IMG/VR virus record: IMGVR_UViG_3300023223_001280
Span: 1-48,985 of that record
Reading direction: 5' to 3' (one strand)
Source of the DNA: a virus
DNA length: 48,985 nt
Shown here piece after piece: positions 1 to 48,985 of this stretch; positions within the stretch are counted from its first letter, which is position 1; every line of letters begins with the position of its first letter. The translations under genes and the position numbers were made by a program. The notes under the pieces were generated by a model, which was not told where the DNA came from, did not search any database, and worked only from the letters and a program-made list of their open reading frames with translations.

Positions 1-84
1 GGAACAGATGCAACTGAGTAATCTGGCACCGCATTTAGACCGAATACGTCAGGATACACTGGCTTTTTTAAAGCAAGAGCGCAT

Positions 85-149
85 TGTGCAAGCCAGTGAC
101 GAATGCTGCGGCAAGGGTTACGTTAGATGTACACCGTCACGCAACGTGA
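85..149 (+). promoter_or_regulatory. Structured leader element, copy 1 (diverged)
   Basis: Candidate RNA structure in front of the first small gene. An outer helix TGTGCA (85-90) pairs with TGTACA (128-133) with one G-U. Its inner flanks are AGCC (91-94) and TAGA (124-127). A weaker helix GTGAC (96-100)/GTTAC (117-121) lies inside. It is followed by a perfect small hairpin TCACG-CAA-CGTGA (137-149), then the ribosome binding site and ATG at 173. The TAGA flank and overall plan match copies 2 and 3. This copy is the least convincing of the three because the inner helix is short. Confidence 0.4.
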
Positions 150-172
150 GCGGAACACAAGGAGCAACAACA

Positions 173-367
173 ATGACAAACCAACAAGATGCGATCAACC
201 ACGCGCAACACGCGCAAGCACGCGCAACAGTATTCGCCGATACAGTCGAAAACAAAAATGGCGTGTATAATCCTATCATACGACTTTGGGCGGATCGCAA
301 TGGATGGGCGGTGATTTTGAATAGCGACGGTAGTGTGAGTAAAGCGATCGACGCACGCAACACGTAG
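173..367 (+). CDS. Small hypothetical early protein (64 aa)
   Basis: Unknown function. The chosen ATG follows AAGGAGC at good distance. The same frame stays open to the left edge of the window (from base 2), so a longer protein cannot be excluded, but the upstream part overlaps the leader structure at 85-149 and has no good start signal. The product is soluble, starts with an Ala/Gln/His-rich helix (QDAINHAQHAQARA) and ends with a compact part containing IIRLWADRNGWAVILNSDGSV, which looks like beta-strands. It is the first of three small genes that each follow a copy of the same leader element, so they may be co-regulated. Confidence 0.6.
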   Translation: MTNQQDAINHAQHAQARATVFADTVENKNGVYNPIIRLWADRNGWAVILNSDGSVSKAIDARNT

Positions 368-387
368 GAGTACCCGAATTGAATCGA

Positions 388-433
388 ATTGCAACCCAAG
401 CGGACAGCGCGAACTGTTCGCTTTAGATGCAAT
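388..433 (+). promoter_or_regulatory. Structured leader element, copy 2
   Basis: Outer helix ATTGCA (388-393)/TGCAAT (428-433), then flanks ACCC (394-397) and TAGA (424-427), then a 10-bp inner helix AAGCGGACAG (398-407)/CTGTTCGCTT (414-423) with one G-U and a 6-nt loop CGCGAA. The conserved run TTTAGATGCAAT continues into CCGCATCAC, also present in copy 3. It lies between the stop at 365-367 and the ATG at 467. It is read here as an RNA structure because the helix sequences differ between copies but pairing is kept. Confidence 0.6.
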
Positions 434-466
434 CCCGCATCACAAACCACACAAGAAAGCAAAACA

Positions 467-736
467 ATGCACACAATTTCAATCACACGTGAAACTGAGA
501 TGCGTCCGTCAGGTATTGAAACAATACTCATCGTACGTCCAACAAAAACGAAAGTATTTAAGGATTTTAATATTCTACAAACATCTTGGGACAAAAACCA
601 AAAAGCATATCATTGGCAGTACACTGATAAAACCGGGAAAGTTGTAGATGGAAGCAAGGATAGTTATAAACATTGCTTGGTAATGCCTCACACTTCGCAT
701 GATATAATAGACGTGAGTTATCATTCAAGGTTCTAA
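467..736 (+). CDS. Small hypothetical early protein (89 aa)
   Basis: Unknown function. The ATG at 467 is preferred over an in-frame alternative start at 389 because 389-466 carries the leader structure. The ribosome binding site is weak (AAGAAAGC). The protein begins MHTISITRETEMRPSG and has alternating beta-strand-like and charged segments (ETILIVRPTKTKVFKDF, then SWDKNQKAYHWQYTDKTGKV). No signal peptide or membrane segment is visible. It is the second gene in the row of leader-preceded small genes. I cannot assign a family. Confidence 0.6.
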   Translation: MHTISITRETEMRPSGIETILIVRPTKTKVFKDFNILQTSWDKNQKAYHWQYTDKTGKVVDGSKDSYKHCLVMPHTSHDIIDVSYHSRF

Positions 737-738
737 CC

Positions 739-837
739 GAATTGTAACCTAAACATGGACAACACGGAAAAGCGACGTCGGTTGGTAATCCCCACGTCCA
801 TGTTTTAGATGCAATTCCGCATCACCGCTAACGCGGT
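739..837 (+). promoter_or_regulatory. Structured leader element, copy 3 with long loop
   Basis: Outer helix GAATTGTA (739-746)/TGCAATTC (810-817) pairs over 8 bp with one U-G. The flanks are ACCT (747-750) and TAGA (806-809), identical or nearly identical to copy 2. The inner helix AAACATGGAC (751-760)/GTCCATGTTT (796-805) is perfect over 10 bp and shares no sequence with the copy 2 helix. The 35-nt loop (761-795) includes the 29-nt segment complementary to 1887-1915. A small hairpin ACCGC-TAAC-GCGGT (824-837) follows, then GGAGC and the ATG at 857. Confidence 0.65.
765..793. repeat. 29-bp inverted repeat, left arm (pairs with 1887-1915)
   Basis: These 29 bases are the exact reverse complement of 1887-1915. 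Both lie in the sense of the rightward genes, so transcripts containing them could base-pair. The left arm fills most of the loop of leader copy 3. Confidence 0.9.
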
Positions 838-856
838 TAATTAACGGAGCAATACA

Positions 857-1429
857 ATGACAAACCAAATACCAATCAAAGACATAAGCGACAAGGAACT
901 GGCCAGTTACGTTCGCGCCATTGGCGCAAGCACAACGATCAACCGGCGCGGCAAGGAACACATGACAACGTTCGATATCGTGCTTGCCCAATTCCCGCTT
1001 GTCGCACTCGAGCGTTTCATCACTTACGGCGCGCAACGGTGTTTCAACGATGCAATCGGCGGCGCGGATAAAACGCCCGAAAGCAAAGTTGAAACGGTCA
1101 AGTTGATGATCGAAGAATATCAAGCGGGCGAGGTTAGCAAAAGGCGCATTAGCGCACCGGTTGACAATGTGCAAGTAGTTACACGTCAGCTTGCCCGTGC
1201 CGCGCTTCGTGCCATGATGGCGGAACAAAACGTGGATTTCAAAGCGTTCACCGAACTCGCCCGCGATGTACAAAATGAGAAGCTTGACATGATCATCGAT
1301 AACAACGACGACCTGATCGCACAAGCCAAAAAGAAAATCGCGGATCGCAAAACCGCAAGCAAAGGTTTGGACCTAGCTACGCTTGGTCTAGCCAACAAAG
1401 GCAAGGCGCATGACGGATCGGAGGTTTGA
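857..1429 (+). CDS. Conserved hypothetical, first of a pair of related proteins (190 aa)
   Basis: Unknown function. The start follows CGGAGC. It is a soluble, mostly helical protein. Its C-terminal half (about residues 110-182) follows the same pattern as the protein at 8828-9355: AR..(L/I)RA.(M/L)A, then AKK(K/R)(I/V), then AS(K/E)G and a Gly-Leu-rich end, so I infer that the two are distant paralogs. A central stretch FITYGAQRCFNDAIGGA resembles a short motif I associate with small phage proteins of unknown role. Both paralogs sit directly behind a control region (leader copy 3 here, a sigma70 promoter at 8828), which suggests a role early in infection. The gene is followed by a small membrane protein two bases downstream. 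Confidence 0.75.
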   Translation: MTNQIPIKDISDKELASYVRAIGASTTINRRGKEHMTTFDIVLAQFPLVALERFITYGAQRCFNDAIGGADKTPESKVETVKLMIEEYQAGEVSKRRISAPVDNVQVVTRQLARAALRAMMAEQNVDFKAFTELARDVQNEKLDMIIDNNDDLIAQAKKKIADRKTASKGLDLATLGLANKGKAHDGSEV

Positions 1430-1431
1430 TC

Positions 1432-1623
1432 ATGGGTACAATAGGTACAATAGGCACAATAGTAATGTCAGCATTACTCGGTGGCATAAGCGCAGTGACG
1501 TTGTGGGTATTTTTCCTAGACAAAAATATGAGTAAGGAAGACAAAAGCGAAAACCTGACACTTCTCTTTTGGCACACCGCTATAATTACTGCAGCAATAT
1601 ATACCGTGTTATCAAACTGCTAG
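1432..1623 (+). CDS. Small membrane protein (63 aa)
   Basis: Unknown function. The ATG at 1432 has a strong GGAGG eight bases upstream, and the gene lies two bases after the previous stop. The protein has two hydrophobic segments, roughly residues 2-29 (ending SAVTLWVFFLD) and 46-60 (WHTAIITAAIYTVL), separated by a charged linker KNMSKEDKSEN, so it should span the inner membrane twice. Its first ten residues come from a nine-base tandem repeat (GGTACAATA, three near copies). It is the last gene before the terminator at 1645-1675. It could be an inhibitor of a host envelope process or a superinfection factor, but nothing in the sequence decides that. Confidence 0.65.
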   Translation: MGTIGTIGTIVMSALLGGISAVTLWVFFLDKNMSKEDKSENLTLLFWHTAIITAAIYTVLSNC

Positions 1624-1644
1624 TAATTGTCTTATGGTAATTAG

Positions 1645-1675
1645 GCCCGGGGCGCTTCAAATGTCCCGGGCTTTT
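1645..1675 (+). terminator. Rho-independent terminator
   Basis: Perfect 7-bp GC stem GCCCGGG (1645-1651)/CCCGGGC (1665-1671), a 13-nt loop and a TTTT tail. It lies 21 bases after the small membrane protein gene and would end the first early transcript. Confidence 0.8.
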
Positions 1676-1766
1676 GCACATGCTTCGCGCCTTTTCGCGC
1701 CATTTAGCACCCACATTTTTCCTCATTATCCCTGATTGGCTCATTCCCAAATATCGACCACATAGA

Positions 1767-1799
1767 CCCATACTATTTGTATATCAAATGGGCCATACC
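1767..1799. promoter_or_regulatory. Operator-like palindrome, site 1
   Basis: ATTTG (1775-1779) and CAAAT (1785-1789) are separated by five bases and flanked by CCCATAC (from 1767) and CCATACC (1793-1799). The two CCATAC boxes are 25 bp apart, exactly as at 8718-8750. A shared binding site for a phage or host regulator is inferred. Confidence 0.55.
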
Positions 1800-1862
1800 T
1801 TACTGTGACCTGTCCCTTCTGTTCTTTCTTTAAAAAAATATTTTTTTTTTAAAGACAGTAAG
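1799..1862. other. AT-rich inverted repeat; candidate origin or terminator
   Basis: CTTACTGT (1799-1806) is the reverse complement of ACAGTAAG (1855-1862). Between them is a self-complementary A/T core (TTTAAA...TATTTTTT...AAA, about 1829-1853). The left side is pyrimidine-rich and the right side purine-rich on this strand. It could be an easily melted replication origin or a bidirectional terminator. The sequence alone does not separate these. Confidence 0.4.
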
Positions 1863-1886
1863 AGAGAAGACACACAGGGAAGTATG

Positions 1887-1915
1887 GGGGATTACCAACC
1901 GACGTCGCTTTTCCG
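1887..1915. repeat. 29-bp inverted repeat, right arm (pairs with 765-793)
   Basis: Exact reverse complement of 765-793. It lies directly next to the right arm of the 22-bp repeat (1917-1938), so 1887-1938 is made almost entirely of two segments complementary to upstream sites. Confidence 0.9.
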
Positions 1916-2018
1916 AAATGAGCCAATCAGGGATAATGTAGGAATATGTACACGATTAATGGCACAAAAAGGCACAATGAGGAAACACCACGCCCGTCCA
2001 CCACCCTTACAATACCAT

Positions 2019-2047
2019 TTGCACTATTCCCCAGTTCGTGGTATAAT
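2019..2047 (+). promoter_or_regulatory. Sigma70 promoter for the second early operon
   Basis: TTGCAC (2019-2024), a 17-base spacer, then a perfect TATAAT (2042-2047). Transcription would start near 2054, about 37 bases before the ATG at 2091. Confidence 0.8.
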
Positions 2048-2090
2048 CGGGTCACAATCACCACACAAGCGCACCGAAAAGGAACCCGTC

Positions 2091-2477
2091 ATGACCCCGC
2101 AAGAGATATTCAACCGTGTCGCGACGCGACTGCACGATGGCACAGGCCAAGCAATGGTAGACGGTACATGCATGTACCTCGACAACGCAGGAAACAAATG
2201 TGTAGTAGGCATTTTCATGTCCGATAACACCTCCACACAAAACTTCGTGGGAGGTGTTTATAGCCTCATAAAGAACTACCCAAACGATATTCCTCCTTGG
2301 TTCATAGACAACGCTAAACTGTTGGAACAACTCCAAGAAATTCACGACAGCTCAGACGCATGGACATTTGACGGCACATTAAGCGACGAAGGTGAAGTAG
2401 AGTTGGAACTGTGTGCAGCCAAGCACTTACTGGAATTACCCGCGCAAGCGGGGCAGGTACGCGGGGCTAGCCAATGA
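2091..2477 (+). CDS. Conserved hypothetical phage protein (128 aa)
   Basis: Function unknown. The ATG at 2091 lies just after the 2019-2047 promoter. An in-frame start far upstream (1884) would cross that promoter and is rejected. The protein starts MTPQEIFNRVATRLH and has the pattern C-x-Y-x(6)-KCVVG followed by acidic and helical parts (LLEQLQEIHDSSDAW). I associate this pattern with a widespread family of small phage and plasmid proteins. Two Cys residues (CMYLDNAGNKC) might bind a metal or be structural. The stop overlaps the next start (ATGA), so translation is probably coupled. Confidence 0.75.
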   Translation: MTPQEIFNRVATRLHDGTGQAMVDGTCMYLDNAGNKCVVGIFMSDNTSTQNFVGGVYSLIKNYPNDIPPWFIDNAKLLEQLQEIHDSSDAWTFDGTLSDEGEVELELCAAKHLLELPAQAGQVRGASQ

Positions 2478-2620
2478 AAAAACCAATTAAATTCTCACAA
2501 ACATACACCGCTTACGGCTGCTACAAATGCCTAGACCCGAGCGAAGGGTGCGCGGATTGTTGGAAAGTGCACAAGCTACGCGCCGAGTACAAATTGAAAG
2601 AGGAGTCACTCAATGACTGA
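2474..2620 (+). CDS. Small Cys4 zinc-finger-like protein (48 aa)
   Basis: Very small gene linked to its neighbour by an ATGA overlap. The central part has two CxxC pairs, CYKC and CADC, ten residues apart and followed by W and basic residues (WKVHKLRAEYK). This suits a single zinc-binding knuckle, perhaps in a protein- or nucleic-acid-binding protein. The start is supported by the overlap, not by a clear ribosome binding site. The end overlaps the next gene by eight bases. No family can be named. Confidence 0.6.
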   Translation: MKKPIKFSQTYTAYGCYKCLDPSEGCADCWKVHKLRAEYKLKEESLND

Positions 2621-2915
2621 CATCACAATAGCTCTAGCCCCTGACGGCGCACATTTCCTCCTAACCGTGCCCGGAGCCCATTCGGAGTCAACCCACACAC
2701 TCACAATCCCGATAAACTACAGTGGAATGCTAACGATGCGCTGTATTTTCACTGAGCGGCAGCACACCACCAAGTCGCCCAAACTAGGCTTAACTGGCAA
2801 CCCAGTGCAATCGATGGTGGATCAGTGGCTTCGTGACAACACTCCAACCCGCTTGCGTGGGACCGGTACGCAACACACGCACGTCGCAATTGACCTGGAG
2901 GCATTAGGGTTATGA
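2613..2915 (+). CDS. Hypothetical protein (100 aa)
   Basis: Unknown function. The ATG at 2613 is preceded by AGAGGAG and lies inside the end of the previous gene. The first half is rich in beta-type residues (DITIALAPDGAHFLLTVPG, then THTLTIPINYSGM). The second half contains QSMVDQWLRDN, a likely amphipathic helix. There is no membrane segment or signal peptide. The gene ends in a four-base overlap with the next small frame. Confidence 0.65.
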   Translation: MTDITIALAPDGAHFLLTVPGAHSESTHTLTIPINYSGMLTMRCIFTERQHTTKSPKLGLTGNPVQSMVDQWLRDNTPTRLRGTGTQHTHVAIDLEALGL

Positions 2916-3011
2916 CAGTAGAAAGCATAATCGTCGACATACTACTATTCGGTATGCATCATACTCATTGCGGTATATTATCTTGTCGGCCGGCTGAAGC
3001 AAAACAAGTAA
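2912..3011 (+). pseudogene. Small single-span membrane protein gene interrupted by a frameshift
   Basis: The ATG at 2912 overlaps the previous stop (ATGA). It opens with MTVESIIVDILLFG and then becomes unremarkable (HHTHCGIL...), running to 3061. In the +1 frame from about 2952 the sequence reads IILIAVYYLVGRLKQNK and stops at 3011: a clean transmembrane helix with a basic tail. Skipping one base near 2957 gives a continuous 32-residue membrane peptide. I therefore read it as one gene broken by a single-base insertion, either real or a sequencing error. Without the shift it would be a 49-residue protein ending at 3061 with an ATGA overlap to the next start. Confidence 0.4.
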
Positions 3012-3057
3012 CCCGCGATAGCGGGGATGCCACACCCCAACACAGGAGTAGAAAAGC

Positions 3058-3429
3058 ATGAGCAAAGAAAACATTAACAAATTAATCGCGTGCATTCGAA
3101 ACGAGCGGAATGCGTTTTCAATGGCCGATGTTGACTGGGAATGCCACACACTGGTGCCGGCCGACTCTTTCGAAGGAAAGTATGGCAGTCCCGCTTGTCT
3201 ACTAGGCTGGATGGGAACATTGTTTCCGAACCAAACTTTTTCTGATAAACTGGGTCTGGAAAATGATAGTGACAGTTACAATCATCTCGTAGTTCCCCCT
3301 GGCTGGATGTACAAACAGCACTACACCCGCACCCGCACAATAGCAGTGCTGGAGCATTTACGCGACACAGGACGGGTGGATTGGGATGCATTTGATGCGC
3401 AAGGGTGCAGGACAAACAAGGAGCTGTGA
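3058..3429 (+). CDS. Conserved hypothetical phage protein, CxxG family (123 aa)
   Basis: Unknown function. The start follows AGGAG. The protein has a helical N-terminus (NINKLIACIRNERNAF), a YGSPACLLGWMG motif around residues 42-53, and a C-terminal TRTRTIAVLEHLRDTGRVDW. The combination resembles a group of small phage proteins with a conserved x-A-C-(I/L)-(A/L)-G motif and a C-terminal 'tG.vdW' ending. The product of 5202-5693 shares this plan (TIGCIAGTAL, then VNWQEAF), so the two are probably related. The Cys may be buried or metal-bound. Confidence 0.7.
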   Translation: MSKENINKLIACIRNERNAFSMADVDWECHTLVPADSFEGKYGSPACLLGWMGTLFPNQTFSDKLGLENDSDSYNHLVVPPGWMYKQHYTRTRTIAVLEHLRDTGRVDWDAFDAQGCRTNKEL

Positions 3430-3431
3430 TC

Positions 3432-3845
3432 TTGCCCGTATCCAAAAACATAAACTCCTACACCGACATCCGCCAAGTACTCGACAGCGCACTAGCCGTT
3501 GGCGGCGCACGAATTCGCATAAACACTAAGGGCAGCGCTCGCCATTGGATGCAGCGGGCGTACTCATTCCGCAAGCTCGCACTTGCGACAGAAAGTACTG
3601 CAGTGGGGCATATAATTGGCTACACCCCTTCCACCCCATACGACAGTATGAAACTAAGTGTCCAGCCTCTCCCTAACGGTCAAGCCGATGTTGTGATCGA
3701 GTTTCGTGTGATCGAGGGCGAACTACTATCACTTGATGGCAAAACCGTGCTCGAGCCCGCGGTAGCGGGGGCGGTGCGCATTCACACAGGGGGTGGTGAA
3801 GACGAGCTACTTACTGAAGCAATGAAAATAGCTGAGGAGAGCTGA
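3432..3845 (+). CDS. Hypothetical protein with TTG start (137 aa)
   Basis: Unknown function. The TTG at 3432 lies eight bases after GGAG (3420-3423). A GTG at 3426 would sit too close to that site, and an ATG at 3405 lies inside the previous gene. The sequence begins PVSKNINSYTDIRQVLDSAL and continues as a mixed alpha/beta protein with basic residues early (SARHWMQRAYSFRKL) and a strand-rich middle (SVQPLPNGQADVVIEFRV). The early basic helix could contact nucleic acid, but this is speculative. Confidence 0.6.
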   Translation: MPVSKNINSYTDIRQVLDSALAVGGARIRINTKGSARHWMQRAYSFRKLALATESTAVGHIIGYTPSTPYDSMKLSVQPLPNGQADVVIEFRVIEGELLSLDGKTVLEPAVAGAVRIHTGGGEDELLTEAMKIAEES

Positions 3846-3849
3846 ACCA

Positions 3850-4089
3850 ATGAAATACAAGTTCAAACTGAATGATCAAGTGTATAAAACGAGCGGATAT
3901 TCATACAATGGATGGATCAGAATGCGGGGAATAACTATCCAAGGAAAAGAACGGTATGTTGTGGAGAATTGGACCAAGCCACCATGCACTTATATCTCAG
4001 GCAACGAGCATAAAGATGATTCTTACCGGTTTAACCACGAACTCGGGGAGAGGCAGAAAAGAGAAAACGGTGTCTGGGTTCCCGGATGA
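3850..4089 (+). CDS. Small beta-rich hypothetical protein (79 aa)
   Basis: Unknown function. The ATG follows GAGGAGA at good spacing. The sequence is basic and strand-rich (YKFKLNDQVYKTSGYSYNGWIRMRGITIQGKERYVVENW), a pattern seen in small SH3-like or KOW-like folds of phage proteins. The C-terminal part is polar (ELGERQKRENGVWVPG). It lies four bases after the previous gene. Confidence 0.65.
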   Translation: MKYKFKLNDQVYKTSGYSYNGWIRMRGITIQGKERYVVENWTKPPCTYISGNEHKDDSYRFNHELGERQKRENGVWVPG

Positions 4090-4108
4090 CGAAAATTAGA
4101 GTTTTAAA

Positions 4109-4309
4109 ATGACCAAACTACTCGCTAGCATCGCAACCGCGATGCTACTCACCGCGTGCACAACACCAGGCGGCCGCTACACCGGTATGACTTACTACTA
4201 CACCGACAAAGCTGGCATCGACCATTCCTGTCGCGAACCTACCCCGTGGCGCGGCGGCAATTGTCGTCCCTTAACCGAGTGGAAGGATATCCCAAATGGC
4301 CGAATCTGA
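4109..4309 (+). CDS. Small predicted lipoprotein (66 aa)
   Basis: N-terminal signal MTKLLASIATAMLLTAC with a clear lipobox (LTAC, Cys at residue 17) followed by TTPGG, so the mature protein of about 50 residues should be lipid-anchored. A Gly/Tyr-rich segment (RYTGMTYYYTD) follows, then two more Cys (SCREPTPWRGGNC) that could form a disulphide in the periplasm. It is encoded among early genes rather than with the lysis genes, so a role in host-surface exclusion is conceivable. The last 14 bases overlap the next gene. Confidence 0.7.
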   Translation: MTKLLASIATAMLLTACTTPGGRYTGMTYYYTDKAGIDHSCREPTPWRGGNCRPLTEWKDIPNGRI

Positions 4310-4829
4310 CTCCCGCCGTTTTGCCGGCCAGATCTTCATCTGGTCCGGTCTCTTGTCCCGCAATCTGTATGGTTGGCAACAGGGTATGCGCAAAGTTGGC
4401 AGCGCAATCGGTGACGCAACTTTCATCCCTTCCAAACGCACCGGGAGCGGTTACGATTGGATCGACGAAGTCACCGAAGCAATCATCGCGAACGGCCACG
4501 AGCGGGTGCTGCTGATCGGCCACTCAAACGGAGTGTACGCGATAACCGAGGTAGCCCGACGACTTCGTACGGGCGAAGTCGTGTGTACACTCATCAGCTT
4601 TGACCAAACCCTGAAAGATTGCCCAAAACTTGGCGCAAACGTTGACCGCGCAATAGATTTGTGGGCAGGTCTGGACAAGCTAGAGGCCGGCCGAAACTTC
4701 ACGGGCAAACTACGCCTCTACGACTTCAGCCCCGACTCGCACATCGGCATCACCCACGACACCGCCGCCCTGCAAATCGCAATAAACTTCGGCCGCGCCT
4801 GGAAGCACGAATGGGAGCCGACAGGATGA
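4296..4829 (+). CDS. Alpha/beta-hydrolase-fold protein (177 aa)
   Basis: Likely esterase- or lipase-like hydrolase. The nucleophile elbow is GHSNG (residues 75-79, Ser77), preceded by the strand RVLLI. A candidate catalytic Asp is in SFDQT (103) and a candidate His in SPDSHIGI (149), in the order expected for the fold. At 177 residues it is a minimal version with no lid domain. There is no signal peptide, so it should act in the cytoplasm unless released by lysis. It overlaps the lipoprotein gene upstream by 14 bases, which suggests translational coupling. The substrate is unknown. LysB-type mycolyl esterases share the fold, but the spanins argue against such a host. Confidence 0.7.
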   Translation: MAESDSRRFAGQIFIWSGLLSRNLYGWQQGMRKVGSAIGDATFIPSKRTGSGYDWIDEVTEAIIANGHERVLLIGHSNGVYAITEVARRLRTGEVVCTLISFDQTLKDCPKLGANVDRAIDLWAGLDKLEAGRNFTGKLRLYDFSPDSHIGITHDTAALQIAINFGRAWKHEWEPTG

Positions 4830-4891
4830 AAACAGCAGCAACAGTTATGCCAAAAATGCAACTCTATCCCATTCAACTAAAGGAGAATATT

Positions 4892-5182
4892 ATGCAAACC
4901 ATTGACAAAACCGAAATAGTACCGGAACCAACAGTCATGGATCGAGAACTACCCAAGATCATAGACCAAGTACAAAATTTTATCAATCAAACAGAATCTA
5001 CCGGTGATCAAGCTGTGCTGATTGTGCTCAGAGTATTAGGTTCACAAACAACACCAGACGAAGCTTATGAAGATGCAAAAACGCATGATGGCGATATTTA
5101 TAAACTAAATTATCTTCTCGATATTCTGGAACAGAAACTTAATCGTATAACAAATGCAACCAATCGGTTGGACACACTGTAA
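4892..5182 (+). CDS. Hypothetical acidic helical protein (96 aa)
   Basis: Unknown function. The ATG at 4892 has AAAGGAG seven bases upstream. An in-frame ATG at 4826 overlaps the previous stop but has a poor ribosome binding site. The protein is acidic and mostly helical (PKIIDQVQNFINQTEST, LNYLLDILEQKLNRITNATNRL), and its C-terminal heptad-like Leu spacing fits a short coiled coil. No membrane segment is present. Confidence 0.65.
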   Translation: MQTIDKTEIVPEPTVMDRELPKIIDQVQNFINQTESTGDQAVLIVLRVLGSQTTPDEAYEDAKTHDGDIYKLNYLLDILEQKLNRITNATNRLDTL

Positions 5183-5201
5183 CAAAACCGGAGCAATCAC
5201 A

Positions 5202-5693
5202 ATGAACGAACTTATGAAAGCCACTCGCCAGCACATCATCGACAACCCCGCAGAATTTGACATGCAACAATGGGGAAAAGTACTAAAACCCGTTTGTAGC
5301 ACTATCGGTTGCATCGCAGGCACAGCCTTGCACTTGCATAAAATGCACCACCCAAAGCTTTCAGTATTTAATCAGCCTACTTATAACGATATTATTGATG
5401 CTGCAACAATAACACTAGAATTACCTTGTGTGGTCGCCATGCACTTATTCATGCCTGGTCGTTGGACGATTAGTTTATGCAACAACAAATTTACCTCAGA
5501 CCATGCCGGTTTATGGGAAGGCAATTACCGCTGCGACCTGGACACAATAGAACAAATGAAAGAGTGGACAAGCAAATGGACTTTTGGTTTCGAAACTTCA
5601 AATGTAGCCGCCAACCATGCCATTGCCGCAATAGATGGTCTCGAGTCCCACCCACACTACGTCAACTGGCAGGAGGCATTCGAAAATGCCTAG
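5202..5693 (+). CDS. Conserved hypothetical phage protein, CxxG family (163 aa)
   Basis: Unknown function. The start follows CGGAGC. The sequence has an N-terminal helix (LMKATRQHIIDNPAEFDMQQW), the motif CSTIGCIAGTAL around residues 33-44, a middle section LELPCVVAMHLFMPGRW, and an end HAIAAIDGLESHPHYVNWQEAF. The motif and the W-containing end match the plan of the product of 3058-3429, so I infer a common family. It is larger because of an insert of about 40 residues. The gene overlaps the next by eight bases. Confidence 0.7.
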   Translation: MNELMKATRQHIIDNPAEFDMQQWGKVLKPVCSTIGCIAGTALHLHKMHHPKLSVFNQPTYNDIIDAATITLELPCVVAMHLFMPGRWTISLCNNKFTSDHAGLWEGNYRCDLDTIEQMKEWTSKWTFGFETSNVAANHAIAAIDGLESHPHYVNWQEAFENA

Positions 5694-5913
5694 TCGCAAA
5701 CCAATGACTGCCACCACCCCAATGCCTGAGGCATATTTAGGCGACGGTGTATATGCCTCATTCGATGGTTATCACATCTGGCTCAAAACACAAGAAGGTG
5801 ACAGCATCGCCATCGAAGATGGAGTATGTGAAATGCTTTACAGATATACCCGAGGAATAGATAGACATTTTAATGTTTGTCGTTATGCACCCAAACAGGA
5901 GCAATCCCAATGA
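5686..5913 (+). CDS. Conserved small phage protein (75 aa)
   Basis: Function unknown, but the pattern YLGDGVYASFDGYHIWL followed by IAIEDGVCEMLYRY is one I recognise from many phage genomes as a conserved small protein of unknown role. AGGAGG nine bases upstream fixes the start at 5686, inside the end of the previous gene. It is probably a compact beta-rich domain with one C-terminal helix. The ATGA overlap with the next gene suggests coupled translation. Confidence 0.75.
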   Translation: MPSRKPMTATTPMPEAYLGDGVYASFDGYHIWLKTQEGDSIAIEDGVCEMLYRYTRGIDRHFNVCRYAPKQEQSQ

Positions 5914-6194
5914 CCCCAACTGAAAAACTTAACCACATCTGCGCAACCTGTGCAAATGCAAAAATCGCCATGTTCAGTACCTCAAAATATTCTGATGAGT
6001 GGCACATAGACGTTGATATCGTAACAGACAGTCGCGATGAAGTGTCACTGCGTGAAACAAACACCGAACTGGACGATTGCATTGACGCGATCTACAAGAA
6101 AACCATGGCATTTCTCGCCAGCAACATCGATTTCGTCGCGCCGCAGATCGAGCACCAACCGGCGGTAGACGCCAACGACGAAATCCCATTCTAA
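5910..6194 (+). CDS. Hypothetical protein with SSB-like acidic tail (94 aa)
   Basis: Unknown function. The start overlaps the previous stop (ATGA) and follows GGAGC. The N-terminus has two Cys in a CATCANAK segment. The middle is strand-like (EWHIDVDIVTDSRDEV). The last residues are ANDEIPF. An acidic run ending in I-P-F is the hallmark of the single-stranded-DNA-binding protein tail that recruits partner proteins, so this small protein may imitate or compete with it. The body does not look like an OB-fold SSB. The tail could also be coincidence. Confidence 0.65.
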   Translation: MTPTEKLNHICATCANAKIAMFSTSKYSDEWHIDVDIVTDSRDEVSLRETNTELDDCIDAIYKKTMAFLASNIDFVAPQIEHQPAVDANDEIPF

Positions 6195-6208
6195 ACGGAA
6201 CAACCCTC

Positions 6209-6487
6209 ATGCTTAACAATAACATAAACATAAAAGCAGGCAAACTGTTCTGCTGGTCAACAGGCGAGTATAGCGACTATCAATACATAGGTCATTTCCT
6301 TGCGCTAGTCAACATTGACAGCGAGCTGCAAATACAGGAAAGTAAAGGTATAGACCGTAAAAATCGTCAATACCGTAGCATGGCCGGCCTGCTTCTGCCT
6401 GAATTGATCCGTAGTGGCGTAGTTATGTCAATTGACGTGCAAGAAATACACGGCGAGTTAACAAGTTGGGGAGTAAACCGCTCATGA
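6209..6487 (+). CDS. Hypothetical protein (92 aa)
   Basis: Unknown function. It starts 14 bases after the previous stop with a weak ribosome binding site (CGGAACAA). It is a mixed alpha/beta protein with several aromatic residues early (LFCWSTGEYSDYQYIGHF) and a helix MAGLLLPELIRSGVVM. The stop overlaps the helicase start by four bases (ATGA), so it is probably translated together with the helicase. Confidence 0.65.
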   Translation: MLNNNINIKAGKLFCWSTGEYSDYQYIGHFLALVNIDSELQIQESKGIDRKNRQYRSMAGLLLPELIRSGVVMSIDVQEIHGELTSWGVNRS

Positions 6488-7956
6488 CCGATTTCACCCC
6501 AACACCCGAACAACAAGATATTCTTCTTGCCGCCACCGAGACCGACGACAACCTGCTAATCTCCGCCCTTGCCGGCGCAGCAAAAACCAGCACCCTAGTC
6601 CTAATCGCGAAGGCGTTGCGCAAAACACCAATCCTGTGCCTCGCATTCAACAAAGCCATCCAGGTCGAAATGACCGCACAACTCCCTTCCACCACTGTAG
6701 CCATGACCCTAAACTCAATCGGGTACCGTGCCTGGCGCGAAGCAACCGGTCGTCGTCACCCCATTAACAAAAGCAAAACCTACGAGTTGCTCAAACGCCA
6801 CATCAACACCAAACTGAAAACAGGCGAGAAATTGGAGGCCCACACCACTATGACCGAGCTGATGCGGGCAATAGACTCGGGCAAAACCGCCGGTTACGTA
6901 CCGAGCGGTCATTTCCCTTCCGCTCGTCCACTCATGAACGACGACGAGTTCTTCGCCTGGCTCGACGACATCCCCAGCAAACTCGGCGAAAGTATAATCC
7001 GCGACGTGACGATTGAGTCAATACACGAATCTTTCCGGGGCGAACTCGATTTCAACGACCAGATTTTCATGCCAACCATCTTCCCCGCAACATTCCCACA
7101 ATACCCCCTTGTCATGGTCGACGAGGCACAGGATCTATCCGCCCTCAACCATGTCATGCTCAACAAAATCGCCCGCAAGCGCATAATCGCAGTCGGTGAT
7201 GAGTGCCAAGCCATCTACGGATTTCGCGGAGCGCACGAAGACAGCATGAATTTGCTCCAGCACCAATTTGGCATGAAGGAGATGCACCTCACCATCTCTT
7301 TCCGCTGCCCAATCGCAGTGGTGAAAACTGCCCGAGGACGAGCACCCCAGATGCGCTACCCAGACTGGGCCGAAACCGGCAGTGTCACCACTCTCCCCTC
7401 GTGGAACATAAACAACATACCCGACGACTGCTTCGTTCTGTGCCGCAACAACGCCCCCCTATTCACCCTCGCCATGCAAATACTCCGCGCCGGCCGCTTT
7501 CCCACCCTCCGCGGGAATGAAATTGGCCGCACCATCCTGAAGAATATGAAAAAGTTCGGAAAAAGCCAGCTGACGCGGGTCGAGGTACACTCAGCAATCA
7601 ATGCTTGGGAAAGCAAAAAGCAAAAAAAGTCCAGATCGCCCAAAAAAGTAACAGACATGGCCGATTGTATGCGTTTGTTCGCTGAAAATGGCAAAACCCT
7701 CGGAGATGCACTCGCATATGGCGAGCATTTAATCAATTCTTCCGGGCCAATCCACCTCATGACCGGGCACAAGGCAAAAGGACTTGAAAAACCTGTGGTT
7801 TTCATCCTTGACGAGTACCTAATCGCCCCATTTGGCCAAGATCGCAACCTGCGCTACGTCATGCAAACACGAGCGCAGCAGGATTTGATCTACATCACCT
7901 CGGGGGGCTTCAAAAGCGAAGCAGAATTCAACGAAGAAATGGTTGAGTCGGTATGA
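6484..7956 (+). CDS. UvrD/Rep-like superfamily 1 DNA helicase (490 aa)
   Basis: ATP-driven DNA translocase/helicase, likely 3'-5' by family. Q-motif-like TPEQQDILLA is near residue 7, motif I ALAGAAKTST at 28-37 (Lys34), motif Ia LCLAFNKA at 51-58, motif II VDEAQD at 212-217, motif III VGDECQAIYGFRGA at 237-250, a motif V-like GHKAKGLE near 430 and a motif VI-like MQTRAQQD near 465. It is shorter than UvrD (about 720 aa), lacking most of the 1B/2B insertions, as in many phage helicases. The start at 6484 overlaps the previous stop. It may act in replication restart or recombination with the nuclease and Sak4-like ATPase encoded 4-5 kb downstream. Confidence 0.93.
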   Translation: MTDFTPTPEQQDILLAATETDDNLLISALAGAAKTSTLVLIAKALRKTPILCLAFNKAIQVEMTAQLPSTTVAMTLNSIGYRAWREATGRRHPINKSKTYELLKRHINTKLKTGEKLEAHTTMTELMRAIDSGKTAGYVPSGHFPSARPLMNDDEFFAWLDDIPSKLGESIIRDVTIESIHESFRGELDFNDQIFMPTIFPATFPQYPLVMVDEAQDLSALNHVMLNKIARKRIIAVGDECQAIYGFRGAHEDSMNLLQHQFGMKEMHLTISFRCPIAVVKTARGRAPQMRYPDWAETGSVTTLPSWNINNIPDDCFVLCRNNAPLFTLAMQILRAGRFPTLRGNEIGRTILKNMKKFGKSQLTRVEVHSAINAWESKKQKKSRSPKKVTDMADCMRLFAENGKTLGDALAYGEHLINSSGPIHLMTGHKAKGLEKPVVFILDEYLIAPFGQDRNLRYVMQTRAQQDLIYITSGGFKSEAEFNEEMVESV

Positions 7957-8072
7957 TACCTTACAAATTCACCTTTCCTTTTGCAATTTTCAGAGCCTTA
8001 GCACGGAGGCAGCGTCGTAAAGAGTTAGCTAATGACTCGAAACTATTCACAACAAAACTAAGGAGCAGTGAC

Positions 8073-8240
8073 ATGACAACACCTATCCCCCACACTCATG
8101 ACAACACAAACCACCCACCAGTAGGCGAATGTTCGGATTCAATCGGCCTGCTCCCGCGTGAGTGGGACGAATGTAGACCGAGCGACTATGTGCAAACTGA
8201 AGTGGCATTATTGAAACGGCAACGTTTTGAACTGACATAA
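8073..8240 (+). CDS. Small hypothetical protein (55 aa)
   Basis: Unknown function. AAGGAG seven bases upstream supports the ATG at 8073. The frame is open back to an ATG at 7953 that overlaps the helicase stop (ATGA) and would add 40 basic residues (ALARRQRRKEL), so a 95-residue form is possible. The 55-residue form starts with a His/Pro-rich, probably disordered segment and ends in LLPREWDECRPSDYVQTEVALLKRQRFEL. Confidence 0.5.
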   Translation: MTTPIPHTHDNTNHPPVGECSDSIGLLPREWDECRPSDYVQTEVALLKRQRFELT

Positions 8241-8251
8241 GGAGAAACAAC

Positions 8252-8332
8252 ATGGAAACAATTGAATATAACAATTTCGATAAACAACTGTGGAAAGATT
8301 GCATCGCTGGCAAGGAAAACTATCATGAGTGA
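8252..8332 (+). CDS. Tiny ORF (26 aa)
   Basis: Starts with ATG eight bases after AAGGAG and encodes METIEYNNFDKQLWKDC plus nine residues. It overlaps the next gene by eight bases, the same spacing seen between other real gene pairs here. It is either a genuine micropeptide or a translated leader for the zinc-ribbon gene. Confidence 0.45.
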   Translation: METIEYNNFDKQLWKDCIAGKENYHE

Positions 8333-8642
8333 TTTTAAAGGAAAGAAAAACATTTACCTGTGTAATGAATGCGGCCACGGTTTCGTCAGTCTGGATCAAG
8401 ACAGTGGCACTACTCCATTCATGACTGCTTGCCGAAACCCAGAATGTGAAAAGTTGGCGTACAGTCTGCTTTACCTGTGCCCGCAAGAATCGCTGGCAGA
8501 AGTCAAACCGGCTTTAATATGGGTAGTACCCACGGGGGATCAATTAGCCAAAATGTCCGAATCCACCCAACACCATGTAAAAATGGGTGGATTAATTTCT
8601 AAAGAATGGTTGACTGAACTGGAAAAGGAGAGTATACATTAG
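8325..8642 (+). CDS. Zinc-ribbon phage protein (105 aa)
   Basis: Residues 11-43 carry CNEC...CRNPEC, a Cys4 zinc ribbon of the type found in many small phage proteins of unknown role. The linker contains TTPFMTACRN, and a helical C-terminus follows (KMSESTQHHVKMGGLISKEWLTELEKE). The chosen ATG (8325) lies inside the tiny upstream frame. An in-frame upstream start would overlap that frame fully. Zinc ribbons of this size often mediate contact with nucleic acid or with a larger enzyme, but no partner is evident. It is the last gene before the control region at 8643-8827. Confidence 0.75.
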   Translation: MSDFKGKKNIYLCNECGHGFVSLDQDSGTTPFMTACRNPECEKLAYSLLYLCPQESLAEVKPALIWVVPTGDQLAKMSESTQHHVKMGGLISKEWLTELEKESIH

Positions 8643-8647
8643 ACCAA

Positions 8648-8717
8648 TCAATATGATCCCGTTGTGGCCACACCGAACCGCAAATGGCCCGTTCAGTGAC
8701 TGCAACGATCATATTGA
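8648..8717 (+). other. Long RNA hairpin after the zinc-ribbon gene
   Basis: TCAATATGATC (8648-8658) is the exact reverse complement of 8707-8717. The helix continues with GTTG (8661-8664)/CAAC (8703-8706) after a two-base bulge, and an inner GGCCA/TGGCC pairing is possible. There is no T-run, so it is not a classical terminator. It may be a transcript-end stabiliser or a regulatory RNA domain. Confidence 0.5.
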
Positions 8718-8760
8718 CCCATACCATTTGATACGCAAATCACCCATACCATCTGCAAAT
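8718..8760. promoter_or_regulatory. Operator-like palindrome, site 2 (tandem)
   Basis: CCCATACC (8718-8725), ATTTG, five bases, CAAAT (8736-8740), then CCCATACC again at 8743-8750 and a shorter ATCTG-CAAAT (8751-8760). The 25-bp spacing of the CCATAC boxes equals that at site 1. The element ends five bases before the -35 box of the promoter at 8766, so a bound protein would block or activate it. Confidence 0.6.
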
Positions 8761-8765
8761 AACCC

Positions 8766-8794
8766 TTGAAGTTACTTTCAGTTTGCGGTATAAT
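8766..8794 (+). promoter_or_regulatory. Sigma70 promoter for the replication operon
   Basis: TTGAAG (8766-8771), a 17-base spacer and a perfect TATAAT (8789-8794), 34 bases before the ATG at 8828. Both this and the 2019-2047 promoter have the context GGTATAAT. Confidence 0.85.
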
Positions 8795-8827
8795 GGCAAC
8801 GCAACAAACAACAATTTGGAGACTAAC

Positions 8828-9355
8828 ATGACTGAAGTAACATCAAAAATAGTACAAATCCAAGGCGAAGAATTCACCCTACCCATTCGCTACACCGAGG
8901 GCGTAGTCCTAAGCGCGATCGAGGCCAAGGTACTCAGCCAAACATGGTGCGAAAATGTGCGCAACAACACGGCGAAATTTATCAAGGCAGCGAATGATGA
9001 AGATAACGAAATGACAATGGCCCAGGCGCACGATGAAGTGTATGCCGCTGCCAATGAATATGAGTTTACCGCCGCAGCCGCCGCCGGAAGTCGGTCATCC
9101 TACACCCCTGAGCAGAAAGAAGCTCGCAAAATTGCCCGCGAAGGCATCCGTGCTGAACTCGCCGCCGCCGGTCGTAAAATGTCTGATATTGGCAAAGAGG
9201 TTCTCGAGGCCGCTGTGCATCAAGCTTCCGAAATGCCTCACATTGTCAAGATCGCGAAAAAACGCGTGAAAGAAGCACAGTCCGCGAGTGAAGGCATCCT
9301 GGCCGGCTTGGATTTGTCCGGCACAGGAGAAGTTTCCGAAATAGCCGCAGAGTAG
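8828..9355 (+). CDS. Conserved hypothetical, second of a pair of related proteins (175 aa)
   Basis: Unknown function. The ATG at 8828 follows TTGGAG. A TTG at 8783 in the same frame falls inside the promoter and is rejected. It is an Ala/Glu-rich helical protein with a central Ala tract (AAAAAGSRSS) that looks like a flexible hinge. The C-terminal half (EARKIAREGIRAELAAAG...IAKKRVKEAQSASEG) parallels the product of 857-1429 in spacing and residue type. It is the first gene of the replication operon and would be made in large amounts from the strong promoter, which fits a DNA-binding or host-modifying role, though nothing proves one. Confidence 0.75.
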   Translation: MTEVTSKIVQIQGEEFTLPIRYTEGVVLSAIEAKVLSQTWCENVRNNTAKFIKAANDEDNEMTMAQAHDEVYAAANEYEFTAAAAAGSRSSYTPEQKEARKIAREGIRAELAAAGRKMSDIGKEVLEAAVHQASEMPHIVKIAKKRVKEAQSASEGILAGLDLSGTGEVSEIAAE

Positions 9356-15722: not shown

Positions 15723-16754
15723 GTGAGCGACCAGCAACCTATCATGATCGTTGGCGAGGCCTGGGGAAAGGACGAGGCCGAGGCCCGCCTACCTTTCGTC
15801 GGCAAAACTGGGGGCATTCTTCGCGTAATGCTGCGGCAGGTTGGCATCGACATATCCTCAGTTTACCTAACCAACGTATTCAACCTTCAACCGCCCGGCG
15901 GAAACGACGTTAAGAACCTGTGCGGTTCACGACCCGAGGCAATAAAAGGAATGCCAGCACTCAACCGTGGCAAGTTTGTGCGGGCCGAGTACTTGCCCGA
16001 GATCGAGCGCCTATACCACGAAATCGCTACGATCAAACCCAACATCGTGATAACCTGCGGGGCTACCCCAACATGGGCACTACTCCACACCAACGGTATA
16101 GCAAAGCACCGGGGCGCCCCATTCAGCTGCCCAATACCAGGCCCAATCGCTGGCGTAAAAGTCCTGCCCACCTACCACCCGTCAGCCGTTGCCCGTGATT
16201 GGAAGCTGCGCCCGATCGTCATTGCCGACCTGCACAAGGCAAAACGCGAAGCAGAGTTTCCTGAAATCCGACGGCCACGTCGAGAGATATGGATCGAACC
16301 TACATTCAAAGACATCAACACCTTCTACAACGAGTACATGCTAGACTGTGATGAACTGTCAATCGACATTGAAACGATAGGCAATCAAATAACCTGTATC
16401 GGATTCGCCCCGACCGAGGTGGTAGCACTAGTCATTCCATTCTATGATCCTCGACAAAAGGATGGCAATTACTGGCGAACAATTGAAGAAGAACTCAGGG
16501 TTTGGGATTTGGTCCGGTATTTCTGCTCCCTTGACCGGGCGGTGGTCGGCCAGAACTTCATGTATGACATGCGTTTTCTACTCGACAGCTATGGCATACC
16601 TTGCCCTAACACAAACGACACCATGCTGTTGCACCATGCCCTACAACCGGAAATGCAAAAGAGTCTTAACTTCCTCGCATCGGTCTACAGTGACGAACTT
16701 AAGTGGAAGTTTATGGGCGGGCGAGGAACACTAACTCGGAAGAAGGAGGACTAA
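15723..16754 (+). CDS. Uracil-DNA glycosylase fused to N-terminal part of a 3'-5' exonuclease (343 aa)
   Basis: Residues 1-170 match a family 4-type uracil-DNA glycosylase: GEAWG (11-15), PFVG (24-27), NVFNLQPPGGND, and YHPSA (151-155). The N-terminal pair of the four Fe-S cysteines of family 4 is not seen. Residues 205-340 match the proofreading exonuclease of polymerase A: motif Exo I DIET (215-218) and Exo II NFMYD (278-282). Exo III is missing here and appears at the start of the next gene. The protein would remove uracil from, and proofread, newly made phage DNA together with the polymerase. The GTG start at 15723 is uncertain; ATG 15744 is an alternative. Confidence 0.82.
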   Translation: MSDQQPIMIVGEAWGKDEAEARLPFVGKTGGILRVMLRQVGIDISSVYLTNVFNLQPPGGNDVKNLCGSRPEAIKGMPALNRGKFVRAEYLPEIERLYHEIATIKPNIVITCGATPTWALLHTNGIAKHRGAPFSCPIPGPIAGVKVLPTYHPSAVARDWKLRPIVIADLHKAKREAEFPEIRRPRREIWIEPTFKDINTFYNEYMLDCDELSIDIETIGNQITCIGFAPTEVVALVIPFYDPRQKDGNYWRTIEEELRVWDLVRYFCSLDRAVVGQNFMYDMRFLLDSYGIPCPNTNDTMLLHHALQPEMQKSLNFLASVYSDELKWKFMGGRGTLTRKKED

Positions 16755-16757
16755 ACA

Positions 16758-16799
16758 ATGCCTACAAAAGTAGATGTCAATACGCAAACCTGTGCATAA
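16758..16799 (+). other. Mini-ORF with strong ribosome binding site before the polymerase
   Basis: AGGAGG (16744-16749 region) lies seven to eight bases before ATG 16758, which opens a 13-codon frame (MPTKVDVNTQTCA) in the frame of the upstream glycosylase gene. It stops 11 bases before the polymerase GTG at 16811. It may serve for translational coupling, or be the trace of a frameshift that once joined the two proteins. Confidence 0.4.
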
Positions 16800-16810
16800 G
16801 AGAAGTAACC

Positions 16811-18370
16811 GTGGTCCGTATAATTCAAACAGCTGATCTTGATCCGCACGTTTCGCTACCCCGTACAACTAACGATTGGGTATACAACGGACTCGATTGC
16901 TGCGTGACCCTCGAGATATGCCACACCCTCCTCGAGCAGCTTGACGACACCAGCCGCACCATCTACGAACGGTCCCTTGCACTACAGGGACCGGTGCTTG
17001 AGATGACCTTGCGTGGAATAAAGATCAACGAGGTCGAGCGCAAACAAATCCTTGCTCACACCGTTCGCGATATCATGAAGCTTGAGGCAAACTTGTACAT
17101 GATTTTGCAAGAGGGACTTGGCATTGACACGAAAATGAAAGGCCCAACAAAGTATTGGCGGAGCAACAAACAGTTGATGCATCTATTCTACACTGTGCTG
17201 GGATTGGAGCCGATAAAGAAACGCAATGCTGCGGGTGGCTTCAGCCCCACGGTCGAGGAGACGGCATTGGAAAAGCTTTCAATCCATTTCTACGCCGAAC
17301 CAATCTGCGCCCACATCTTACTCCTCCGTGATCTCGACAAGCAGCGCCAATTACTTGAGACTGAATTGGATGAAGACAAGCACCTGCGAGCAAGTTGGAA
17401 CATTGCGGGCACAAACAGCGGGCGCTTCTCGTGCTCTGAGTCTGCATTCGGTACCGGTCGCAATACCCAAAATATTGACAAGCGTCTGCGGACGATGTTC
17501 ATTGCAGATGATGGAATGAAGTTGGCCAACCTAGACCTCAAACAGGCCGATGCCCGTAATCTCGGCGCAATCTGTTGGGAGCTTTTTGTCGAGAAGTATG
17601 GTCCAGAATTTGCAGGCAAATACCTCGACTATTGCGAGTCCGGTGATCTGCACACCAAGGTGTGCGAAATGGGTTGGCCAACACTTCCATGGACTGGCAA
17701 TACTGCAGCAGATCGGGCAATCGCTGATGTAATCGCCCACAAAGGCATGTCATACCGCGACCTTTCCAAACGACTCGGTCACGGCACCAACTACCAGGGC
17801 GAGGTAAGTGTGGCTCAGGCAACGAAGCTGGCCATGTCGGTCATTCTCGCATTCAAGAAAAAGTACTTTGCTGGTTTTCCTTGCATAGAATTGTGGCATG
17901 ATTGGGTAAGAAGACAGCTCATTGATTTTGGATTCATCACTACCCTTCTCGGCCGTCGCCGTTTCTTCTACGGCAGGCCAAGGGACGCAAATAACATTCG
18001 TGAAGCTGTTGCCTACGGCCCTCAATCAATGACTGCTGAACAGACACATATGGGACTGGTAAACTTATTCCGTACAAATCGAGTACAACTTTTGCTTGAA
18101 GGCCACGATGCACTAATCTTTCAGTACCCGAAAGATGAGGAAGAAGAAATCTTACCACTAGCAATTGCTGCCATGACTATACCGTTGACCCTCAAGCAGG
18201 GCCGCGAGTTTGTTGTGCCGGTAGACGCAAAGGTGGGATGGAATTGGGGAGACAAGACGAGTGACAATTACCACGGGCTGGCGAAATGGAAAGGTGCGCC
18301 AGACGAACGCACCTCCCCGGTGTACGGTAAGCAACCACGCCTTTCATTTCTTAGGGAGTTAGAAAGATGA
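16811..18370 (+). CDS. DNA polymerase A family polymerase with Exo III motif (519 aa)
   Basis: Replicative family-A polymerase. YNGLD (25-29) is the Exo III motif completing the exonuclease of the previous gene. TNSGRFS (201-207), motif A DLKQADAR (242-249), motif B R316...K320...Y328 and motif C GHDA (431-434, with Ala in place of the usual Glu) follow in order. The residue aligned to Phe762 of E. coli Pol I is His324. The start is uncertain: GTG 16811 is chosen, while GTG 16703 would overlap the previous gene by 52 bases and has no ribosome binding site. The stop overlaps the next frame (ATGA). Confidence 0.92.
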   Translation: MVRIIQTADLDPHVSLPRTTNDWVYNGLDCCVTLEICHTLLEQLDDTSRTIYERSLALQGPVLEMTLRGIKINEVERKQILAHTVRDIMKLEANLYMILQEGLGIDTKMKGPTKYWRSNKQLMHLFYTVLGLEPIKKRNAAGGFSPTVEETALEKLSIHFYAEPICAHILLLRDLDKQRQLLETELDEDKHLRASWNIAGTNSGRFSCSESAFGTGRNTQNIDKRLRTMFIADDGMKLANLDLKQADARNLGAICWELFVEKYGPEFAGKYLDYCESGDLHTKVCEMGWPTLPWTGNTAADRAIADVIAHKGMSYRDLSKRLGHGTNYQGEVSVAQATKLAMSVILAFKKKYFAGFPCIELWHDWVRRQLIDFGFITTLLGRRRFFYGRPRDANNIREAVAYGPQSMTAEQTHMGLVNLFRTNRVQLLLEGHDALIFQYPKDEEEEILPLAIAAMTIPLTLKQGREFVVPVDAKVGWNWGDKTSDNYHGLAKWKGAPDERTSPVYGKQPRLSFLRELER

Positions 18371-18489: not shown

Positions 18490-18807
18490 ATGAAACTAGT
18501 AATAATCGAAAGCCCCTACGCAGGCGATATTCAACTGAACACCGAGTATGCTCGTGCCTGTGTACATGACAGCCTTAGCCAAGATGAAGCTCCCATTGCT
18601 TCTCACCTTCTTTACACTCAGCCAGGAATTTTAGACGACAATACTCCTGAGGAACGGAAACAAGGTATTGAGGCTGGGCTAGCTTGGCACAAGGTTGCTG
18701 ATCTTATAGTAATATATACAGATTATGGTATCAGCAAGGGCATGGCTTCTGCAATTGAAGGAGCCATAACTAGTGGAATTGATATTGAATACCGAAAAAT
18801 AGAATAG
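18490..18807 (+). CDS. DUF4406/DUF7768-like protein, nucleoside deoxyribosyltransferase fold (105 aa)
   Basis: Begins MKLVIIESPYAGD (beta-strand plus loop), then N...ARACVHDSLSQDEAPIASHLLYTQPG, then ADLIVIYTDYGISKGMASAIEGA. This is the Rossmann-like layout of DUF4406-type phage proteins related to nucleoside 2-deoxyribosyltransferases, probably acting on nucleotides or sensing them. The start at 18490 fits the domain boundary and follows AAAGGAA. The same frame is open to an ATG at 18367 that overlaps the polymerase stop and would add 41 polar residues. Confidence 0.75.
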   Translation: MKLVIIESPYAGDIQLNTEYARACVHDSLSQDEAPIASHLLYTQPGILDDNTPEERKQGIEAGLAWHKVADLIVIYTDYGISKGMASAIEGAITSGIDIEYRKIE

Positions 18808-48619: not shown

Positions 48620-48687
48620 CACACAGCACACTTCACAGCCACAGCTGCAACCAACACAAGCAGATAGATACTAGCATAGTTTAGCAT
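48619..48687 (-). CDS. Tiny hydrophobic peptide (22 aa)
   Basis: MLNYASIYLLVLVAAVAVKC plus AV, one membrane segment, linked on both sides by TGATG overlaps with the holin and the beta-rich protein. Such double coupling supports translation. It may assist the holin. Confidence 0.5.
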   Translation of the reverse strand: MLNYASIYLLVLVAAVAVKCAV

Positions 48688-48915: not shown

Positions 48916-48985
48916 GCGCTTTCCCACGAATAAAGGACAATCCTGATGCTAAACTATGCTAGTATCTATCTGCTTGTGTTGGTTG

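Follow-up and report, generated by a model that had tools for sequence, protein, structure and literature searches.

Covarying stem-loops between the early genes of a podovirus with the layout of T7 RNase III processing sites

The early gene cluster and its setting

The window considered here is the whole of a virus record, 48,985 bases in length, with a GC content of 43-53% and no tRNAs. Its structural genes, which encode the portal/connector, capsid, tail tube and internal virion proteins, are T7-like, and its replication genes include those for a family A DNA polymerase, a UvrD-type helicase, a PD-(D/E)XK exonuclease and a primase. A search with Pfam PF00940 gives no T7-like RNA polymerase in the record but detects this enzyme in the two positive controls, T7 and Pseudomonas phage CHF21. 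The family A DNA polymerase is split between two overlapping plus-strand frames (15723-16754 and 16703-18370, matching phrog_17 profile positions 480-790 and 809-1238, respectively), an arrangement that could mean two separate genes, a frameshift or an error in the sequence. A tail-fibre-like gene on the minus strand carries two 300-nt direct repeats (21035-21334 and 21428-21727) that are 73% identical, and the final 70 bases of the record (48916-48985) are an exact inverted copy of 48648-48717, which probably arose as a foldback during assembly of the contig end.

Near the start of the record lies a cluster of four genes, designated A to D, that ends in a terminator-like hairpin. Two structured elements, copies 2 and 3, occupy the A-B and B-C gaps of this cluster. 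The features are as follows.

85..133, + strand: claimed copy 1, unsupported as a structured copy
173..367, + strand: gene A, 64 amino acids, no family match, upstream of copy 2
386..435, + strand: copy 2, with outer helix 388-393/428-433, internal loop strands ACCC (394-397) and TAGA (424-427), 10-bp inner helix 398-407/414-423 and hexaloop CGCGAA
467..736, + strand: gene B, 89 amino acids, no family match, between copies 2 and 3
739..817, + strand: copy 3, with outer helix 739-746/810-817, internal loop strands ACCT (747-750) and TAGA (806-809), 10-bp inner helix 751-760/796-805 and a 35-nt apical loop made up of a 6-nt loop and a 29-nt insert
857..1429, + strand: gene C, 190 amino acids, no family match, downstream of copy 3
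1432..1623, + strand: gene D, small, membrane-protein-like by eye, the last gene of the cluster
1644..1675, + strand: terminator-like hairpin GCCCGGG...CCCGGGCTTTT, closing the four-gene cluster A-D

Genes A to D are likely to be co-transcribed, and copy 3 begins 2 nt past a stop codon. No convincing promoter was found between the cluster genes. Because the contig starts within the early region, the early promoter would lie outside the view. Upstream of the start at 173, the reading frame of gene A stays open at least as far as position 8 (window 1-172), and the gene may therefore be longer, in which case the claimed copy 1 would fall in a coding region.

Two elements with a covarying inner helix

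Copies 2 and 3 are built on the same plan. The outer helix, the ACCY and TAGA strands of the internal loop and the 10-bp inner helix that were reported for these two copies in the initial annotation are all present, with folding z-scores of -3.3 for copy 2 (over 380-445) and -4.3 to -4.6 for copy 3 (over 736-817 and 733-845). Near-identical flanks common to the two extend to 441 in copy 2 and to 823 in copy 3, and for both the fold program proposes a lone C-G pair within the internal loop.

The inner helix had been described as completely different between the copies yet paired in both. Pairing is indeed kept, and 6 of the 10 pairs have changed on both sides, but pairs 1, 2, 4 and 9 are identical. 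Covariation of the observed degree was matched by 8 of 500 column shuffles, and sliding the partner strand by 1-3 columns lowers the proportion of paired cells in the two copies from 97% to 21-40%. The outer helix is nearly without covariation, showing one change from C-G to U-G and one mismatch. Both non-Watson-Crick pairs are G-U on the plus strand and would be A-C on the opposite strand.

The combination of features is also confined to these two places in the window. When a covariance model of copies 2 and 3 was run unfiltered over the whole window, the only matches below an E-value of 0.01 were the two copies themselves and the reverse strand of copy 2. Stems with an outer helix of at least 5 pairs, an inner helix of at least 9 pairs and a 4x4 or 4x5 loop between them number 17 on the two strands, and the loop strands ACYY/TAGA occur only in copies 2 and 3.

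Conceivably, a functionless hairpin that arose by chance was recently duplicated to give the two copies. There are only two of them, no relatives carrying the element were found, and the shared 22-nt flank is 95% identical, so that the duplication could be young. Against this stand the six compensated inner pairs beside fixed flanks, the match of the loop strands to T7 sites (see below) and the location of both copies in gene gaps, and a functionless origin is considered highly improbable.

Nor is it at all likely that the element acts at the level of DNA, with its inverted repeats bound by a regulator or used in recombination. Such a role would be in keeping with the start-associated stretch common to leaders 1 and 3, and with the layout of the extended start-associated sequences (ESAS) of cluster K mycobacteriophages, which are likewise repeated inverted-repeat elements with variable centers located upstream of a subset of early, non-structural genes (PMC3203893). 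In ESAS, however, the repeat sequence is conserved while the spacer varies, and its authors found little support for mRNA hairpins (PMC3203893), whereas in the present element the inner arms change with compensation and the wobble pairs fit only a plus-strand RNA. Assignment to ESAS itself, which is characterized by conserved 17-bp inverted repeats with a variable spacer next to GGGATAGGAGCCC, was rejected, as the inner arms differ between the copies and the SAS motif was not seen in the leaders.

The proposal of a family of three structured leaders under selection on RNA structure is upheld for copies 2 and 3 by their six compensated pairs, but it does not extend to the stretch at 85-133 that had been taken as a third, diverged copy. 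This stretch folds at the shuffle mean (z-score of 0.06, or -0.9 with more flank) and is missed by the covariance model of copies 2 and 3 even at an E-value of 10. Its structured part resembles copies 2 and 3 at shuffle level, with 326 and 411 of 1000 shuffles, respectively, scoring as well, and the only likeness to either copy beyond that of shuffles is the 7-mer TTAGATG. What leaders 1 and 3 share is the ribosome-binding and start region, GGAGCAA..AATGACAAACCAA, which none of 1000 shuffles equaled. Folding does predict, for both, the second small hairpin that had been noted after copies 1 and 3.

Comparison with the RNase III sites of T7 and T3

Although the initial annotation knew of no named RNA class with this pattern, the RNase III sites of phages T7 and T3 have the same architecture and nearly the same loop strands. 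The T7 sites R0.3, R0.5 and R1.1, folded from NC_001604, each give an outer helix, the strand ACUC, an inner helix AAGG...CCUU of 9-10 bp, the strand UAUGA and the return of the outer helix, and T3 R0.3 and R0.5, which are annotated in NC_003298 as RNase III recognition sites, adopt this same layout. A pair between the C of ACUC and the G of UAUGA is predicted for T7 R0.3 and R1.1. Three further T7 sites at 13863, 18511 and 36826, which carry no annotation in NC_001604 and which we take to be those named R4.7, R6.5 and R18.5, vary in their loops (CCTC/CATGA in R4.7, TACGA in R6.5 and TATGG in R18.5).

Like the early sites R0.3, R0.5 and R1.1, copies 2 and 3 are intercistronic, lie among early genes and possess an outer helix and a lone C-G pair within the loop. 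Also common to both groups are a 5′ loop strand of the form A-C-Y-Y, a 3′ loop strand of the form U-A-(U)-G-A and an inner helix of 8-11 bp that opens with AA/UU. The 5′ strands of the window copies, ACCC and ACCU, are one and two substitutions, respectively, from the ACUC of T7 (for which CCUC and ACUU are variants), and the paired C is kept. The 3′ strand is UAGA, of 4 nt, in contrast to the 5-nt UAUGA of T7 (variants CAUGA, UACGA, UAUGG and UGUGA). The window copies further differ from the T7 sites in that the AAGGUC/GGCCUU inner consensus is missing, and the window phage differs from T7 in having no single-subunit RNA polymerase. The model substrate among these sites, R1.1, lies between T7 cistrons and has an internal loop of 4/5 nt, in which a single cut divides its RNA into pieces of 47 and 13 nt (PMC6121014; PMC4858673). 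Recognition by RNase III depends on structure, and a fully paired loop permits double cuts (PMC8708148).

A descriptor of these sites (ACYY / TA(T)GA, with an inner helix of at least 8 and an outer helix of at least 3 pairs), drawn up after both the window and the T7 sites had been seen, selects, across the entire T7 genome, only R0.3, R0.5 and R1.1 and, in the window, only copies 2 and 3. Sites in T3, K30, Jarilo and Vibrio phage JSF35 are recovered as well, against a background of no matches in 60 shuffles of the window and one in 1.25 Mb of other viral loci. Because the descriptor was fashioned post hoc, a less tuned measure was used as well, namely the edit distance of the loop strands to the ACTC+TATGA of T7, which puts copy 2 at 2 and copy 3 at 3. 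Among 1467 two-helix stems from 1.25 Mb of other viral DNA, none lies at a distance of 2 or less and 21 lie at 3, figures that apply to a loop match noticed after the fact and to two copies that, being paralogues, amount to roughly one observation.

Profile searches give a less close correspondence. A covariance model built from nine sites of the T7 type finds the held-out T7 sites R18.5, R4.7 and R6.5 at E-values of 2e-11 to 9e-7; in the window, it ranks copy 2 second at an E-value of 1.8, which is not significant, and does not list copy 3. The converse model, built on the window element and run against T7 1-9000, returns R0.3 only at an E-value of 2.7, since it is dominated by the flanks of the element itself. 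Given the poor profile match, the 3′ strand that is one base short and the missing inner consensus, the likeness to T7 sites is taken as one of function and is not read as a sign of common descent. With that proviso, copies 2 and 3 are candidate intercistronic RNase III processing sites, and they probably function in the manner of the T7 early mRNA sites. The earlier suggestion that the fixed flanks form a protein- or ligand-binding site is thus broadly borne out, with the protein RNase III as the likely partner, and a look for RNA processing at these sites had been one of the checks proposed there.

The predicted cut and an alternative hairpin

Alignment to the T7 sites places a predicted cut within each copy (marked below by an arrow), directly at the edge of a second potential structure.

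425..426, + strand: cut by RNase III predicted for copy 2, UUUA↓GAUGC, aligned to T7 CCUUUA(U)↓GA
426..441, + strand: alternative hairpin of copy 2, GAUGC-AAUCCC-GCAUC, forming a blunt end at the 5′ terminus that the predicted cut would create, and excluding the outer helix
807..808, + strand: cut by RNase III predicted for copy 3, UUUA↓GAUGC, by the same T7 alignment
808..823, + strand: alternative hairpin of copy 3, GAUGC-AAUUCC-GCAUC, followed by a second hairpin with the loop UAAC

R1.1 is cut at T7 nucleotide 5887 (PMC8708148). Around this nucleotide, the T7 sequence reads CCUUUA↓UGAUUG. By the other convention, the T7 cleavage products presumably end in ...UUUAU and begin with GAU. Both conventions give UUUA↓GAUGC in the window, because the disputed U is the very base that is missing there.

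The conserved block of the two copies extends beyond the outer helix (YCCGCATCAC), and a simple stem needs no such block. The GATGC of the 3′ strand can pair with the GCATC of this block, forming a conserved hairpin, GATGC-AATYCC-GCATC, that the initial annotation had overlooked, as it had the 29 nt inserted into the copy 3 loop. Conservation beyond the stem is explained if the predicted cut yields a 5′ end bearing the blunt hairpin GAUGC/GCAUC. The predicted 3′ product starts GAUGCAAUYCCGCAUC, and its first base lies in the first pair of the 5-bp hairpin, with a pairing probability of 1.0 in copy 2 and 0.9 in copy 3; an exact blunt 5-bp hairpin with a loop of 3-8 starts at 0.6% of plus-strand positions. 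Before cutting, the outer-helix fold and the GAUGC/GCAUC hairpin are mutually exclusive, with energies of -20.4 versus -20.4 kcal/mol in copy 2 and -29.6 versus -26.8 kcal/mol in copy 3. In this respect the window copies are unlike most T7 sites: most of the T7-type products examined have no such 5′ hairpin, R1.1 and R18.5 having something near it. Decay of mRNA can depend on its 5′ end, and on this basis the blunt hairpin may serve to protect the new 5′ end.

The near balance of the two folds, equal in energy in copy 2 and close in copy 3, would also suit a two-state switch, in which the ACCY/UAGA loop is bound by a phage- or host-encoded RNA-binding regulator, or by some other ligand, that governs how the early genes are translated or transcribed. 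The constancy of the loop strands while the helix changes is compatible with such a regulator. On the other hand, those same strands closely match T7 RNase III sites, the ribosome-binding site lies further downstream and is hidden by neither fold, no terminator-like T run follows the element and no Rfam family matches it. No regulator can be named, as the early proteins have no assigned family. Overall, control by a regulator or ligand seems unlikely.

Proposed processing of the early transcript

Cleavage of copies 2 and 3 by RNase III, the position of the cut and an effect on message stability are what we infer from the folds and the T7 alignment, and a possible sequence of events can be outlined. 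A long early transcript would fold at each element into a stem of approximately 22 base layers (8 + 4 + 10), with ACCY/UAGA as the internal loop that interrupts it. The RNase III of the host would recognize the double helix, leaving the sequence of the inner helix free to change, and the internal loop would restrict the enzyme to a single cut at UUUA↓GAUGC. The upstream mRNA would then be left ending in the inner hairpin and UUUA, the downstream mRNA would start with the blunt 5′ hairpin GAUGC/GCAUC, and each early gene would thus obtain a separate mRNA that carries a structured end.

It might also be, although this is offered as a tentative idea, that the elements represent a separate lineage of RNase III sites in phages, apart from the T7-like phages that have their own RNA polymerase. 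Such a site would be a two-state element, in which the cut leaves a hairpin at the upstream 3′ end and frees a pre-encoded hairpin at the downstream 5′ end. If copies 2 and 3 are indeed RNase III processing sites, the T7-style division of early mRNA by host RNase III would be independent of T7 RNA polymerase, and a distant podovirus with a different replication module would have arrived at it or retained it. A blunt 5′ hairpin freed by the cut would be part of a simple and portable means of protecting both new ends of a processed message, with possible uses in reading early gene expression in uncultured phages and in designing stable operons.

Searches for related elements

Rfam gave no matches in the window at the gathering threshold and only chance-level matches at E-values up to 10. 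A TIGR array was considered and rejected, since the record contains no Nop domain (control genomes were positive) and the two copies are separated rather than in a tandem array. When viral contigs were searched with exact patterns, either the 3′ flank or both flanks with a variable gap, none of the matches listed had the structure, and those listed for a loose pattern failed the helix test. A scan of bacterial and archaeal genomes yielded one match, about the chance expectation, on a contig of a Flavisolibacter MAG that has neither the 5′ flank nor the stem. A search for relatives that started from gene C and from the helicase, terminase and DNA polymerase turned up none for the early genes, and comparison of the early-gene DNA and the gene C protein with a phage collection returned nothing useful. 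The covariance model of the window element found nothing in 39 related records, which is weak evidence of absence because most of these records are fragments.

The insert of copy 3 and a nearby foldback

The apical loop of copy 3 reads AACA, 29 nt and AC, and without the 29 nt it would be a hexaloop like that of copy 2.

765..793, + strand: insert of 29 nt within the copy 3 apical loop, exactly reverse-complementary to 1887-1915

The insert holds the palindrome CGACGTCG, and the window contains no third copy of the 29-nt stretch. The pair formed by 765-793 and 1887-1915 could be either a copied patch or a shared binding or antisense site. A long insert in the apical loop of such a stem has a precedent in T7 R6.5 (18511-18565), a stem of the RNase III type whose apical loop holds the phi6.5 promoter. 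Unlike that of R6.5, the insert of copy 3 contains no recognizable promoter, and it recurs inverted in a nearby foldback.

This foldback spans approximately 300 nt (1683-1985), contains 1887-1915 and is predicted to form 99 pairs at -112 kcal/mol, its outer arms being 76% complementary over 70 nt. It is situated between the terminator-like hairpin at 1644-1675 and a sigma-70-like promoter at 2018-2047, which has an extended -10 element and is the best promoter match of the region. The foldback is possibly an origin or a decayed mobile element.
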